This document shows positions 6,272 to 60,216 of a stretch of 64,000 nucleotides of DNA, piece after piece. The notes beneath the pieces are model-generated. The model had not been told where the DNA came from. It made no database searches and was given only the letters and a program-made list of their open reading frames with translations. The position numbers were made by a program, and so were the translations under genes. Origin of the DNA: Ruminiclostridium herbifermentans (lineage in GTDB: Bacteria; Bacillota; Clostridia; Acetivibrionales; DSM-1351); contig NZ_CP061336.1 in NCBI RefSeq assembly GCF_005473905.2, forward strand, positions 3,216,501-3,280,500, written 5' to 3'. Positions within the stretch are counted from its first letter, which is position 1, and each line of letters opens with the position of its first letter.

Positions 6272-7192
6272 TTACTTTGGGTTCTGAAGATACTGTGCAA
6301 TAAATCCTTCCAATACACCTTGAGAACTGATTTTTATTTCTTCTATATTAAATTTGTCCATAACTGAAAGAAGTATTTTAATTCCGGATGTGATTACATC
6401 TGCTCTTTTAGGATTGAGTCCGATAAGTTTCTTTTTGCTTTCTATATTTAAAAGTTTTAGCATGGAAAATAGCAATTCTATTTCATGTTTCTTGATAACT
6501 TTGCCATTTATAGATTTTTCTTTTGAATGTTCTTTTTGATAAAAAAGTGTCCCCAGAGTTTTTATTGTTCCTCCAGTTCCAACTAACTGTAGCCCGCTTA
6601 AATCTAATGATTCTCTTTCGTTTATCTGTTTCTCTATGTATGCAGTCATTTGCTCAACCTCGCTGTCTTCTATAGGATCATGGCTGACAAACATTTCTGT
6701 TAATCTAACTGCTCCAACATCTAAACTGATTTTCTGCTCAATAACAGTACCATTTCCAATTATTATTTCTGTACTGCCCCCACCTATATCAATGACACTG
6801 AATTTTTGAGATTTGTTTTCAACAACCTCTCTACAAGCCATATATGCTAATTGAGCTTCCTCTTCACCGCTGATAACATTAATATCAATACCAAATAACT
6901 CTTTTACTTTCCCAATAAAAGCTTCCTTATTACCTGCATCTCTTAAAACACTAGTTGAGAAAATTGATACCATCTTTGCTCCTTGAGCATTACTTTCTTT
7001 TATTAAGTTTCCAATAATCTCAATACCCTTTTCTATTGCTTCAGGCTTTAAGTTATTTTCAGGATACATCCCACTACTTAGTCGATTAACTGTGCTAGTT
7101 CTAGTAATAACTTCAACTGCTCCATTTTCATTTAGTTGAGCAATAATAAATTTAGTCGAATTTGTACCTATTTCTATAGCTGAAACACGCAT
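6272..7192 (-). CDS. Ppx/GppA family exopolyphosphatase / (p)ppGpp phosphohydrolase
   Basis: 306 residues from ATG 7192. It has the ASKHA phosphatase motifs: IEIGTNSTKFIIA at the N-terminus, EEEAQLAYMA and IDIGGGSTEIIIG in the middle, and VGTGGTIKTLG later. It lacks the C-terminal HD domain of long Ppx proteins, as usual in clostridia. It should hydrolyse polyphosphate or pppGpp; sequence does not separate the two. Family members usually start right before the first motif, which favours MRVSAIEIG (7192). Upstream in-frame ATGs (7204, 7210) and TTG 7219 lie inside the leader hairpin described separately, and the strong GGGGGG ribosome site is beyond that hairpin. Confidence 0.85.
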   Translation of the reverse strand: MRVSAIEIGTNSTKFIIAQLNENGAVEVITRTSTVNRLSSGMYPENNLKPEAIEKGIEIIGNLIKESNAQGAKMVSIFSTSVLRDAGNKEAFIGKVKELFGIDINVISGEEEAQLAYMACREVVENKSQKFSVIDIGGGSTEIIIGNGTVIEQKISLDVGAVRLTEMFVSHDPIEDSEVEQMTAYIEKQINERESLDLSGLQLVGTGGTIKTLGTLFYQKEHSKEKSINGKVIKKHEIELLFSMLKLLNIESKKKLIGLNPKRADVITSGIKILLSVMDKFNIEEIKISSQGVLEGFIAQYLQNPK

Positions 7193-7260
7193 AAATACAT
7201 CCATGTCCATGTTAAACAAATTAACAATAAATCAATGACATGGACTTGGCACCCCCCTTT
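7190..7260 (-). promoter_or_regulatory. Hairpin-spaced Shine-Dalgarno, Ppx/GppA gene (copy 1 of 4)
   Basis: On the minus strand AAAGGGGGGTG (7260-7250) is followed at once by a stem CCAAGTCCATGT/ACATGGACATGG (7249-7238 and 7212-7201, 11 of 12 pairs) with a 25-base loop, then ATGTATTT and the start ATG at 7192. If the hairpin is folded, the SD-to-start gap is 8 bases rather than over 50. The same arrangement with different stem sequences occurs before trmR, comEA and the gene at 52059-53546. Confidence 0.6.
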
Positions 7261-11312: not shown

Positions 11313-11954
11313 TTAACCTTTCTTATAGCTAAGTGCAACTCCATCTCCAATAGGAATAATACTGGTTTCAAAGTCATCATCCTCGCAAAGAATTTTCAGA
11401 TAGTCCCTCATCCTTGTAACAATTGTTTTCTTTCTTCTAACCACAAGTTCTTCGCTTGCAATCATACCCTTATACAAAACATTGTCCGATACCAATAATC
11501 CTCCAGGAACAAGCATCCTTTTGCATTGTTCAAAAAACTCATTATATTGCCCCTTGGCAGCATCAATAAAAATCATATCATAGCGCTTGTCCAAACACAC
11601 CAAGACATCCAAAGCATCCCCTGCAATTACATTTATAGTGTTTTGCTTACCAGCTAATTTTATATTTTTCCTTGCCAGTTCAATCATTTCTTCATTTCTT
11701 TCAATTGTATCAATAACACCATCCTGCTTCAAGAATCCAGAAAATAATATAGCTGAGTATCCTATAGCAGTTCCAACTTCAAGTATTCTAGACGGCTGCT
11801 TTATTTGTCCTAGCACCTTCATTAAAGCGGCAACCTCAGGTTGAATAATGGGCACATGATTAAGAGCCGCATATTGCTCAAGTTCTGCAAGTAGTCCAGT
11901 GTTAGCCTTTATTGTATCTCTAATATATTCAATTATATAATCATAATTAATCAA
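11313..11954 (-). CDS. trmR: tRNA 5-hydroxyuridine methyltransferase TrmR (COMT-like)
   Basis: 213 residues, catechol-O-methyltransferase-type SAM enzyme. The SAM motif is ILEVGTAIGYSAILF, with an acidic ribose-binding residue in IDTIERNEEM and metal-site residues in MIFIDAAKGQY and VSDNVLY. Its position upstream of trhP and downstream of mltG equals yrrL-yrrM-yrrN of Bacillus, where YrrM is TrmR and makes 5-methoxyuridine at tRNA U34. The only workable start is TTG 11954, because the frame is closed by TGA five bases earlier. The strong SD (GGAGGTG, 12008-12002) is separated from it by a hairpin. Confidence 0.85.
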   Translation of the reverse strand: MINYDYIIEYIRDTIKANTGLLAELEQYAALNHVPIIQPEVAALMKVLGQIKQPSRILEVGTAIGYSAILFSGFLKQDGVIDTIERNEEMIELARKNIKLAGKQNTINVIAGDALDVLVCLDKRYDMIFIDAAKGQYNEFFEQCKRMLVPGGLLVSDNVLYKGMIASEELVVRRKKTIVTRMRDYLKILCEDDDFETSIIPIGDGVALSYKKG

Positions 11955-12008
11955 TAGTCACGTCCATGTTTTTCCACAGTTAACAAATAACATGGACTTG
12001 GCACCTCC
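11952..12008 (-). promoter_or_regulatory. Hairpin-spaced Shine-Dalgarno, trmR (copy 2 of 4)
   Basis: Minus strand: GGAGGTG (12008-12002), one base, then stem CAAGTCCATGTT/AACATGGACGTG (12000-11989 and 11970-11959, 11 of 12 pairs), an 18-base loop, ACTA, and the TTG start (11954). Folded, the SD-start gap is about 7 bases. A short ORF (ATG in the 5' arm to TGA at the 3' arm) also exists and gives a translational-coupling alternative. Confidence 0.6.
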
Positions 12009-52058: not shown

Positions 52059-53546
52059 TTATTCGCAATTATCCTCTTTAATATATTTAATATTTTTTCT
52101 ATATCCTCTGCATCTGCAAAGCAGCATTTCACTTCCCTTAGCCGCCATAATAAATACTATAATAACTGCAAAATACCTGTATCTCACTTGTATTTCAATA
52201 AAAAAGTGTATGCCGAAATAGCATAAAAGTATCAATGAAAGCAGTAAAATGCCTTGATTTATTTTATTATTCACAAGAATTCTGAAAAGACCTATAAACA
52301 TAAGTAAAAAAATAAATATATAATATATTTTTTCATATTTCAGTACAAAAGGTTCAATCTTTTTTACTTGGTTTGAAGGCACAAGTTGTCCGTCTATTTT
52401 TTGATAAAATCCCCAACTTAAGGAATCTGTTCCAGCCCACATTATTTTTTGCTTTTCATTTATCAATACAGCAAGTTTTCTGATTCCTGCAGACATGCGC
52501 TGCTTAATAACCTGTTTTGCTGCATTATCCCTCTCATTAAAATCCTGTATGTTAAAGATATTGTTTTCATCATCAAAGGAAAATTGTCCCTTAGTCTCAT
52601 AGTTTAGGCCAACTACAAATTTCCAAAGAGGAAAGTTATTTGCCAATCCTTCTGAATTAATACCAGTATATTTTACCAAAGCTGAGCAGCCATAGCTTAC
52701 CAGTAAACAAGAAATAAGTACCAATATAGTACTCCCCAGCATGAGCCATTTACCATTTGCAATTTTCTCTATAATCCCACACAATATTAAAGCAGCTAAA
52801 ATAATAATACCTATAGGTCTAACTGCATTTCCTAAAGCAATTACTGCTCCTGCAGCAATGCTTTTAACACCCCAATTTTGTCCTTTCAAAAGCAGTATAT
52901 AAATAGATAGCAGAAACATACACGCTGCGAAGTGCTGATTTGTTAATACTGTTGTCAAAAAATATGGAGCGGGATATAAAAGATATAAAATTGATACCAC
53001 TCTTGCAGTAAAATCATTTGATATTTTATGAGCTATAAGGTATATAAGCGCATTTGTACCAGCCATAAAGAAGCAGTTCGCCATCTTTAACGGAAATAAT
53101 CCCGTTCCAAACAGCTTCATTAAAGCTGCATAATATATAACCGGTCCTGTTTGATATGCCCAAGTCTTAAAATACAATATATCTTGAAAGGACTTTTCAC
53201 CATTTAATAGTTTAGCAGCATACTGATAAAAAACTGCAAAATCGGAAACTGGCTTTGTGTCTGTGAAAAAAATTAATATGCCCTTTGACAAAATGACCAT
53301 AAGAAAAATTACTATAGCAAAAGCTCTATGTGAAATTTTTATATAGCAGGATAAAAAGTGTATTAATACAAATACACTTAAAGCCAATAAAGTACAAATA
53401 GTATATCTCTTATTGCCGTCTATTAGATAATAATAAAAATTGAGATAAATTAAATATAATGAAAAAACGGCTAATATTGAAATAATTATCTTGTTAAGAA
53501 TGGCTCCAAATTTTGTATTATCAACAGTTCTAAAATAATTCGCCAT
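52059..53546 (-). CDS. Polytopic glycosyltransferase-like membrane protein (GT39/ArnT-type)
   Basis: 495 residues from ATG 53546 (MANYFRTVDNTKF). About eleven membrane helices; the first outer loop has TDTKPVSDFAVFYQYA, matching the Asp-containing catalytic loop of PMT/ArnT-type enzymes that use lipid-linked sugars. The second loop FKTWAYQTGPVIYYAALMKLF is also typical. The C-terminal loop region (ETKGQFSFDDENNIFNIQDF) is soluble. A DPM-like GT2 gene (53903-54883) is upstream in the same direction and would supply the polyprenyl-phosphate sugar. The start is set by the hairpin-spaced SD; codons to 53570 (GTG) may instead be used. Confidence 0.8.
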   Translation of the reverse strand: MANYFRTVDNTKFGAILNKIIISILAVFSLYLIYLNFYYYLIDGNKRYTICTLLALSVFVLIHFLSCYIKISHRAFAIVIFLMVILSKGILIFFTDTKPVSDFAVFYQYAAKLLNGEKSFQDILYFKTWAYQTGPVIYYAALMKLFGTGLFPLKMANCFFMAGTNALIYLIAHKISNDFTARVVSILYLLYPAPYFLTTVLTNQHFAACMFLLSIYILLLKGQNWGVKSIAAGAVIALGNAVRPIGIIILAALILCGIIEKIANGKWLMLGSTILVLISCLLVSYGCSALVKYTGINSEGLANNFPLWKFVVGLNYETKGQFSFDDENNIFNIQDFNERDNAAKQVIKQRMSAGIRKLAVLINEKQKIMWAGTDSLSWGFYQKIDGQLVPSNQVKKIEPFVLKYEKIYYIFIFLLMFIGLFRILVNNKINQGILLLSLILLCYFGIHFFIEIQVRYRYFAVIIVFIMAAKGSEMLLCRCRGYRKNIKYIKEDNCE

Positions 53547-53608
53547 TCCTCTATCCATATCACTCTTCACATAGCAATATAAAGAAATGATATGAACTCA
53601 GCACCTCC
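53544..53608 (-). promoter_or_regulatory. Hairpin-spaced Shine-Dalgarno, GT39-like gene (copy 3 of 4)
   Basis: Minus strand: GGAGGTG (53608-53602), CTGA, stem GTTCATATCA/TGATATGGAT (53597-53588, 53562-53553; 10 pairs including two G-U), a 25-base loop, AGAGGA, ATG 53546. Folded, the gap is about 10 bases. The stem sequence differs from the other sites while pairing is kept. Confidence 0.6.
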
Positions 53609-59316: not shown

Positions 59317-60168
59317 TTATTCTATGCAAATAAAATCTTTGATTTTGTCAAAAGTTTTCTGTTTTATGCCAGTAATTTTCATAATATCTGTAAGTTTTTT
59401 AAAACCTCCATTCTTTTCTCTATAGGAAATTATTGCTTTAGCAGTAGCAGGCCCCACATTAGGCAGACTTTCAAGTTCGGACTGTGATGCCGTATTTATG
59501 TTAATTAAACTGCTTTCTTCTTTGCTGCCAGTCTTTGGGGCTTCAACAACACAGCCCATACTATCCTTAATTATATCTACACCACTATTTAATACATTTG
59601 AACTGCTATTCTCATCACTTTTAAAATTGGCAGAAACACTCGTTTTTTGTTGACTAACATTTGCTTTTGGCTTGTTAGAATCCACTTGTATATTGGCGTT
59701 CTCTTTTGAATTATTTTCAGAAATAATTTTATTGTCAGCAATATTTGAAACCTTTGCTTTTATTCTTAACATTGTGTTTTCATTTATTATGTAAGCCAAA
59801 TTAATATTTTCTAAATCAGCCTCTTCTGTAGCACCACCAGCCATCTTTATTGCATCGTCAATTACCTGCCCCTTTTTTATAGTAACTACGCCTGGTTTAT
59901 TTACACAGCCAACAACATATACCTTTATTTCTGGCTCTTCTTCCACTTTATCAAGTTCCTCAGAAGAATTAGTCTCACCTGATGACTCAACTTTCTCAGC
60001 TTTGACTACACTTGTGTTAGTTACTTCTATATCAGAACTAGATAATGGCTTATACACCTGCTTCAAAAAATATCCTAATCCCCCCAAACCAAGAATAAGA
60101 ATTATTGATACACTTATCAACAAAACTTTCTTAATGTAAATTTGCTTTCCGAATAATGTTATTTCCAT
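59317..60168 (-). CDS. comEA: ComEA-like competence protein (SLBB + helix-hairpin-helix)
   Basis: 283 residues from ATG 60168 (MEITLFGKQIYIKK). One membrane helix (about 15-34); an SLBB domain (about 80-138: IKVYVVGCVNKPGVVTIKKG then DDAIKMAGGATEEADLENIN); a long Ser/Asn/Lys-rich linker (about 140-220); and the C-terminal HhH2 DNA-binding domain with ININTASQSELESLPNVGPATAKAIISYREKNGGF. It acts as membrane receptor for DNA during uptake. The alternative ATG 60180 lies in the 3' arm of the hairpin that separates it from the SD (60216-60210). Other com genes are outside the window. Confidence 0.9.
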   Translation of the reverse strand: MEITLFGKQIYIKKVLLISVSIILILGLGGLGYFLKQVYKPLSSSDIEVTNTSVVKAEKVESSGETNSSEELDKVEEEPEIKVYVVGCVNKPGVVTIKKGQVIDDAIKMAGGATEEADLENINLAYIINENTMLRIKAKVSNIADNKIISENNSKENANIQVDSNKPKANVSQQKTSVSANFKSDENSSSNVLNSGVDIIKDSMGCVVEAPKTGSKEESSLININTASQSELESLPNVGPATAKAIISYREKNGGFKKLTDIMKITGIKQKTFDKIKDFICIE

Positions 60169-60216
60169 GTTTATATCCATTGCACATATGTAAATGCCAA
60201 TGGACTCATCACCTCC
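60166..60216 (-). promoter_or_regulatory. Hairpin-spaced Shine-Dalgarno, comEA (copy 4 of 4)
   Basis: Minus strand: GGAGGTG (60216-60210), ATGA, stem GTCCATTG/CAATGGAT (60205-60198, 60182-60175; 8 pairs), a loop with a further GCA/TGT pairing, ATAAAC, ATG 60168. Folded, the gap is 10 bases. The pairs differ from those before the phosphatase gene and trmR (CCATTG/CAATGG against CCATGT/ACATGG), i.e. compensatory changes. Confidence 0.6.

Follow-up and report, generated by a model that had tools for sequence, protein, structure and literature searches.

Hairpin elements inserted between the Shine-Dalgarno sequence and start codon of Ruminiclostridium genes, with a possible origin from IS110-type transposons

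Four minus-strand genes in a 64,000-nucleotide stretch of Ruminiclostridium herbifermentans DNA (NZ_CP061336.1, positions 3,216,501 to 3,280,500; hereafter the window) carry a hairpin between the Shine-Dalgarno (SD) sequence and the start codon, and this hairpin is the 3′ end of a dispersed element of ~95 nucleotides (nt). The window elements were almost certainly inserted between a native SD and the start codon, and we favour, with moderate confidence, the view that the four sites are old copies of a non-autonomous mobile element. Such an origin of the hairpin was not foreseen in the first-pass annotation of the window and differs from the one proposed there. Our best reading, held at a similar moderate level, is that RNA-guided IS110-type elements are aimed at ribosome-binding sites and have given rise to miniature derivatives.

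Results

A dispersed element ahead of unrelated genes

As read from the sequence, the elements are dispersed before unrelated genes in a fixed place and orientation, with empty sites in relatives. A covariance model built from seven copies, two of them from the window (model R1, including sites 1 and 3), gave 62 matches at E ≤ 10 in the source genome, 57 of them at E < 0.1, so that the covariance search suggested in the first-pass annotation returned a large family. A second model of the whole element, which includes no start codon (model R2), gave 61 matches at E ≤ 1, and the two models together mark 73 places in the source genome, weak matches included. Within the window, the next R1 match after the four sites reaches only E 0.61. 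A pattern for the 5′ side only matched 12 times in the 4.82-Mb genome and never in its reversed control, and by inspection all 12 matches were followed by a pairing 3′ arm (some with 1-2 mismatches) and a start codon 5-7 nt beyond. At E ≤ 0.01, R1 matched 7 of 60 genomes and R2 matched 8 of 58, all within Ruminiclostridium (8 of the 11 genus genomes for R2), with no match outside the genus in the genomes searched.

No element matched Rfam at the gathering threshold in the window and eight loci, where only a riboswitch for S-adenosylmethionine (SAM) outside the element was reported, and in twelve loci searched at E ≤ 10 or E ≤ 5 no gathering-score match fell on any element. The SAM riboswitch (RF00162, 88 bits; locus L093, 2296-2396) lies downstream of an element-bearing gene. 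We call the window's own family fam1; its pattern had no match in viral contigs, and the queries tried against phage records found none.

The element runs from AAGG(C/T)TGAAAGAAAT at the 5′ end through the SD, 6 nt and a 9-bp hairpin to a terminal AT. In a tandem pair of the source genome (L109/L102), ..GGACAT is joined directly to AAGGCTG.., which marks both element ends. Copies before unrelated genes in genomes G010, G001 and G008 are near-identical from AAGGTTGAAAG to ..GGGCAT and divergent beyond. In all 50 overlapping pairs of matches, the R2 match stops 3-6 nt short of the R1 match's final codon; the pairs include the tandem copy L109, where this codon is not a start codon, and the TTG site, where it is off by one. 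Among 40 further R2 matches, an ATG stands at +3 to +5 in 32 (background 6.2%), and none lies within 12 nt in three.

Empty sites place the insertion point between the native SD and the start codon, ~4 nt before the ATG and with no long target duplication. The counterpart of L163 in one related genome reads gaggagctgg/aaatATG (the slash marking the junction) and that of L166 in six relatives reads gtgtgggga/aataATG or variants of it, both showing scarless insertion with 0-2 nt duplicated; empty sites for L155 (three genomes) and L157 (one genome) were matched less exactly, and the L165 copy is common to G001. Immediately upstream of the element comes the native SD, seen as a purine run with G or A at positions −7 to −3 in 22 to 31 of 32 junctions. 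Nor does the motif pattern occur at any of 80 trmR loci in other genomes, and none of 47 leaders inspected by eye showed it, which argues against an ancestral leader. The first-pass annotation had named lack of conservation in orthologous leaders as a refutation of its proposal; the leaders are indeed not conserved, because the element was inserted later.

Small dispersed hairpin elements are also known as the byp elements of yeast mitochondria, which occur within coding regions and are skipped by the elongating ribosome, and as REP/RAYT systems, in which REPs are unlinked to start codons and use Y1 transposases. That the present elements are REP-like and moved by a Y1 (IS200/IS605, RAYT) transposase is highly improbable: the GGAG before the hairpin and the missing target duplication are as in REP elements, but no base is fixed at the left junction among the 32 junctions, and Y1_Tnp counts are unlinked to the elements (13 matches and no credible element in G002; no match and three elements in G006). 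With no association between its gene counts and those of the element, we rejected Y1 transposase as the mobiliser. A serine recombinase gene that follows an element copy in G005 and G006 (L272, L273) was likewise set aside, being one gene among many with no sign of mobilising. G006 also holds a serine-recombinase gene cluster (L302, 5279-11760), one member of which is preceded by a short-loop element copy.

The stem between SD and start codon

The stem is conserved at the RNA level. Of 120 leaders drawn from eight genomes, 75 have eight or nine of nine Watson-Crick pairs, as against 3.9% of mononucleotide shuffles; in the source genome 35 of 65 leaders do, as against 1 of 162 ordinary SD-bearing leaders. 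Stems were selected by Watson-Crick pairs only, and the remaining juxtapositions over the 120 leaders, which are not 120 independent events since copies within one genome are related, include 63 G.U and 17 A.C (44 and 9 in the source genome alone), as expected if the sense RNA does the pairing. Eight orthologue pairs with the element on both sides, the register of each being picked by likeness, provide 69 stem positions, of which 45 are unchanged, 5 changed on one side, 11 changed on both and 8 unpaired in at least one member. The paired stem changes remarked on in the first-pass annotation are thus borne out as covariation of an RNA stem. The six orthologue pairs between G000 and G003 all score above the non-orthologous mean in a common-ancestry test, none of them extreme; in each of these pairs both members keep a strong upstream SD despite changes elsewhere. 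Persistence of the stems through compensatory and G.U changes suggests that the RNA hairpin is probably used.

In 58 of 65 copies of the source genome, ~6 nt separate an upstream SD from the stem and another ~6 nt separate the stem from the start codon, and over the 120 leaders the distance from stem to start is exactly 6 nt in 81. Folding would bring the SD to 11-14 nt from the start in 45 of the 58 copies with a recognised SD. A strong SD lying far from the start linearly (43-59 nt at the four window sites), with a conserved RNA stem between, is what a split ribosome-binding site should look like, and such a function is probable in the source genome. The left end, a mobility end, is kept within 2 substitutions in only 6 of 67 source-genome copies, and the SD and stem are recognisable where that end is not, suggesting host use, with the proviso that copies whose SD and stem are intact are more readily found by the searches.

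Two other accounts of the SD bear on this function. The real SD might be the weak run of purines (e.g. ATGGAC) that the 3′ arm contains, hidden by the hairpin, with the upstream GGAGG a leftover; a GGA does sit there at the usual SD distance, and copies in R. hungatei have a 3′-side purine run and no upstream GGAGG. We consider this doubtful given the strong upstream SD in both members of the six G000/G003 pairs and, under the same search preference, the rarity of kept left ends. Alternatively, the SD could serve a short leader open reading frame (ORF) beginning at an ATG in the 5′ arm, with ribosomes re-initiating at the gene. Such an ATG shortly follows the SD in 84 of 120 leaders, and young copies encode MPFLS... 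peptides, but the frame stops more than 12 nt before the start in 36 of the 84, between −12 and +30 in 32 and later in 16. Translational coupling is therefore quite improbable, and a leader peptide or coupling was rejected because the ORF is not kept.

The four window sites

Each of the four sites in the window exists as first described, with SD, arms and start re-read and an R1 match at every one (Table 1). In their leaders, the SD (GGAGG or GGGGG) is separated by 6 nt from a stem of 8-9 bp based on GTCCATG/CATGGAC, and the start codon follows after another 6-7 nt. The distance from GGAGG to the start is 43-59 nt unfolded, in line with the 40-60 first estimated, and the folded distance comes to 12-13 unpaired nt in place of the 7-10 claimed. 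Pfam agreed with three of the gene names assigned (Ppx/GppA, TrmR-like O-methyltransferase and ComEA-like) and gave no family at E ≤ 1e-4 for the protein called GT39-like at site 3.

These identities bear on whether the hairpins form a regulatory leader family, marking a regulon whose translation would be controlled by a protein or small RNA bound to the conserved hairpin. The stem sequence is conserved as well as its pairing, and it lies at the start codon. Recent copying, however, also yields sequence likeness, the version and the set of genes differ from genome to genome, and the genes are unrelated (Ppx, methyltransferase and ComEA by Pfam; by N-terminal likeness, other carriers presumably encode GatB, MurD, biotin synthase, transketolase and rubrerythrin), making a regulon unlikely. 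Of the translation control element originally proposed, what survives is a recurring structured spacer between SD and start; regulation does not follow, as a constitutive split ribosome-binding site would suffice.

Table 1. Element copies and associated genes in the window
Feature	Position	Strand	Details
Site 1	7190..7256	-	SD 7256-7252; 5′ arm 7245-7237 (GTCCATGTC); 3′ arm 7207-7199 (GACATGGAT)
Site 1 gene	6272-7192	-	Ppx/GppA family; start ATG 7192-7190; Pfam PF02541
Site 1 whole element	~7290-7197	-	R2, genome match 3223697-3223790, E 1.2e-5
Site 1, R1 match	7256-7190	-	E 3e-14; R1 training copy (L008)
Site 2	11952..12008	-	SD 12008-12004; 5′ arm 11997-11989 (GTCCATGTT); 3′ arm 11970-11962 (AACATGGAC)
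Site 2 gene	11313-11954	-	O-methyltransferase (TrmR-like); start TTG 11954-11952; Pfam PF01596
Site 2 whole element	~12042-11960	-	R2, E 4.9e-4
Site 2, R1 match	12008-11953	-	E 1.4e-8
Site 3	53544..53608	-	SD 53608-53604; 5′ arm 53597-53589 (GTTCATATC); 3′ arm 53561-53553 (GATATGGAT)
Site 3 gene	52059-53546	-	Start ATG 53546-53544; no Pfam match
Site 3 whole element	~53645-53551	-	R2, E 0.006
Site 3, R1 match	53608-53544	-	E 1.3e-12; R1 training copy (L010)
Site 4	60166..60216	-	SD 60216-60212; 5′ arm 60205-60198 (GTCCATTG); 3′ arm 60182-60175 (CAATGGAT)
Site 4 gene	59317-60168	-	ComEA-like; start ATG 60168-60166; Pfam SLBB and HHH
Site 4, R2 match	~60239-60173	-	Weak, E 0.076
Site 4, R1 match	60216-60166	-	E 8.6e-6

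Sister families at start codons in relatives

R. hungatei (G004) carries 13 young fam1 copies (L176, L242-L253). One of them, L252, is followed by AATCCTG with no ATG, possibly a CTG start or a damaged gene. When long elements sharing the left end of fam1 were sought, a second family, fam2, came up instead; it occupies nine places between native SD and ATG in R. hungatei (L282, L284-L289, L310, L316) and was seen in that genome only among 11. The fam2 element starts with AAGGTTGAAAG.., is ~67 nt long, and contains two hairpins and its own AGGGGGG run directly before the start; at L284 the ATG opens merely a two-codon frame.

A third family, fam3 (L358-L387), is ~109 nt long with a conserved TTTCATTACTATTTGTG core and no Rfam match, and has 26 matches in R. 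hungatei, 7 in G010, 4 in G008 and 3 in G001. In all 31 inspected of these 40, an ATG follows the end of the element within 0-3 nt and a native SD-like run usually precedes the element, which brings its own purine run (GATGGGAG) directly before the start. One gene (MAQVDYKELKKGGF...) has fam3 in G001 and G008 and fam1 in G004, so separate elements entered one start site. A query around L359 obtained no orthologous gene that could give a fam3 empty site; the thiS-thiF site of fam3 is empty in G001 and G008 and holds an apparently shortened copy in G004, where only the last hairpin and the SD-like run of fam3 seem left (L406). Further diverged or shortened fam3-like right ends precede ATG at L441, L440, L443 and L445 (G004, G001, G010). 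The queries tried against plasmid records gave no match to fam3.

Full-length IS110 elements share the fam3 ends

The fam3 core occurs in 17 viral-contig stretches and the fam3 layout in five, of which L424, L431, L433 and L437 contain a related IS110-type transposase gene and L421 fragments of one. L431, L433, L437 and a Roseburia plasmid (L438) have in common ~1.67 kb running from TAGTGTGAAAG to ..GGAATGGAG and abutting an ATG, and the transposases carry the Pfam domains PF01548 and PF02371 (DEDD_Tnp_IS110 / Transposase_20). A clear gene follows the element in L431 (197 amino acids) and L437 (140 amino acids), L438 is open in frame with an annotated gene of 261 amino acids, and in Enterococcus raffinosus (L456) the right end abuts the start of an annotated SDR gene. 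The block CTACAAA(G/T)CACG followed by an SD-like run containing GAGG is present in 7 of 11 IS110 loci. The ends of fam3, TAG(C/T)GTGAAAG and TTTCATTACTATTTGTG-hairpin-GGAG, are those of the full-length IS110-encoding element. From the shared ends, the shared place and the IS110 transposase genes, fam3 very probably derives from an IS110 element by internal deletion, and we hold its IS110 origin with high confidence.

For fam1 the likeness to IS110 ends comprises only the left-end motif TGAAAG, the shared insertion place and, among R. hungatei copies, a resemblance to CTTTCAT..TTTGTG. An IS110 origin of fam1 is moderately favoured, and its mobiliser would be an IS110-family recombinase. In tblastn searches with two IS110 transposases, none was found in samples of ~464 kb of the source genome and ~400 kb of R. 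hungatei.

A second IS110 lineage with a candidate anti-SD guide

In G006, an IS110 element identified by Pfam (L439) adjoins a fam1 copy and has a viral-contig relative, L457, that is 91% alike in protein. Read on the gene strand, each terminates in ..GTACAAGGAGGT ahead of a gene; in G006 the SD there is the fam1 copy's own. The RNA region of both contains TTTCACCTCCTGG. Here a candidate bridge-RNA guide, an anti-SD sequence, matches the junction and differs with it: guide and junction are both CACCTCCT in L439 and both ACCTCCT in L457. In Peptoclostridium (L458), TTCCTCCT stands both in the guide stretch and at the inferred junction, just before an annotated gene start, and in Thermoanaerobacterium (L459, L460) AATTCCTCCT does likewise, just before annotated gene starts; the latter two are identical here and count once. 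A candidate guide in the non-coding end that equals the junction-side target and varies with it is therefore seen, at few loci. According to PMC11208160, the left target guide of the bridge RNA equals the left target, varies with it and ends at CT, and neither "Shine" nor "start codon" occurs in the main text of that paper.

Discussion

Several observations weigh against an RNA-guided IS110 origin and a split-site function throughout. No full-length IS110 element with fam1 ends was found in the loci examined, and the G006 IS110 (L439) is a separate element inside the SD of the fam1 copy, not its parent. The guide block is absent in four of the 11 IS110 loci; only short ORFs follow L421, L424, L433 and Lactococcus L452; and the junctions of L458-L460 were inferred without an empty site, among few loci in all. 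Ordinary genes are spaced 5-9 nt in 115 of 162 cases, shorter than the folded 11-14 nt. Lastly, the R. hungatei fam1 copies have no GGAGG 5′ of the hairpin, so the split-site reading is not valid for every lineage and the split form is one solution among several.

Split ribosome-binding sites have a precedent in genes 38 and 25 of phage T4, where RNA structure between SD and start likewise shortens the spacer, from 22 to 5 nt and from 27 to 11 nt according to passages of PMC3014915. At the four window sites the spacer would shorten from 43-59 to 12-13 nt, and the 11-14 nt of the source genome are near the 11 nt of T4 gene 25. The T4 cases are single phage genes with no mobile element, whereas here dozens of genes in one genome are concerned, spread by insertion.

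Compared with the IS110/bridge-RNA system as covered in PMC11208160, the present elements are alike in that fam3 shares the ends of full-length elements, insertion is scarless, and in the second lineage the junction carries CT and the candidate guide is identical to the left target. They differ in that the target is the ribosome-binding site or start region, that ~70-110-nt derivatives lack a recombinase, and that the element end supplies the SD. The TAACTGA heptamers of Beggiatoaceae are also many dispersed repeats a few nt from the start codons of unrelated genes, but according to PMC4679880 they are short direct repeats with no hairpin, no SD and no known transposon. Among the titles and abstracts of the open-licence papers searched, none treats IS110 or miniature elements targeting start regions.

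Taking these observations together, we propose that the element enters the spacer between native SD and start codon. The native SD, cut off from the start by ~95 nt, must then be replaced. Translation would now begin at the SD that the element brings, and a 30S subunit bound there could reach the start codon because the hairpin would fold the long spacer away. The elements may be moved by an IS110-family recombinase, as suggested by the sister family fam3, which has the ends, the place and the replacement SD of full-length Lachnospiraceae IS110; IS110 elements choose targets via a bridge RNA, and the candidate guide of the second lineage is an anti-SD matching the SD at the junction. We give about an even chance to the wider proposal that IS110-type transposons and their miniatures home into ribosome-binding sites genome-wide via anti-Shine-Dalgarno or SD-mimic guides, that their ends let them survive in these places by restoring the SD or substituting another, in one family by a hairpin that folds between SD and start codon, and that a transposon end has thereby come to serve dozens of host genes as a portable module for translation initiation.

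If true, this would be a natural RNA-guided system targeting the commonest functional motif of bacterial messages and a new kind of safe harbour for transposons, and it would provide dozens of natural split ribosome-binding sites in which to study 30S initiation across a structured spacer. It would also account for start regions that might otherwise be mistaken for a regulon.
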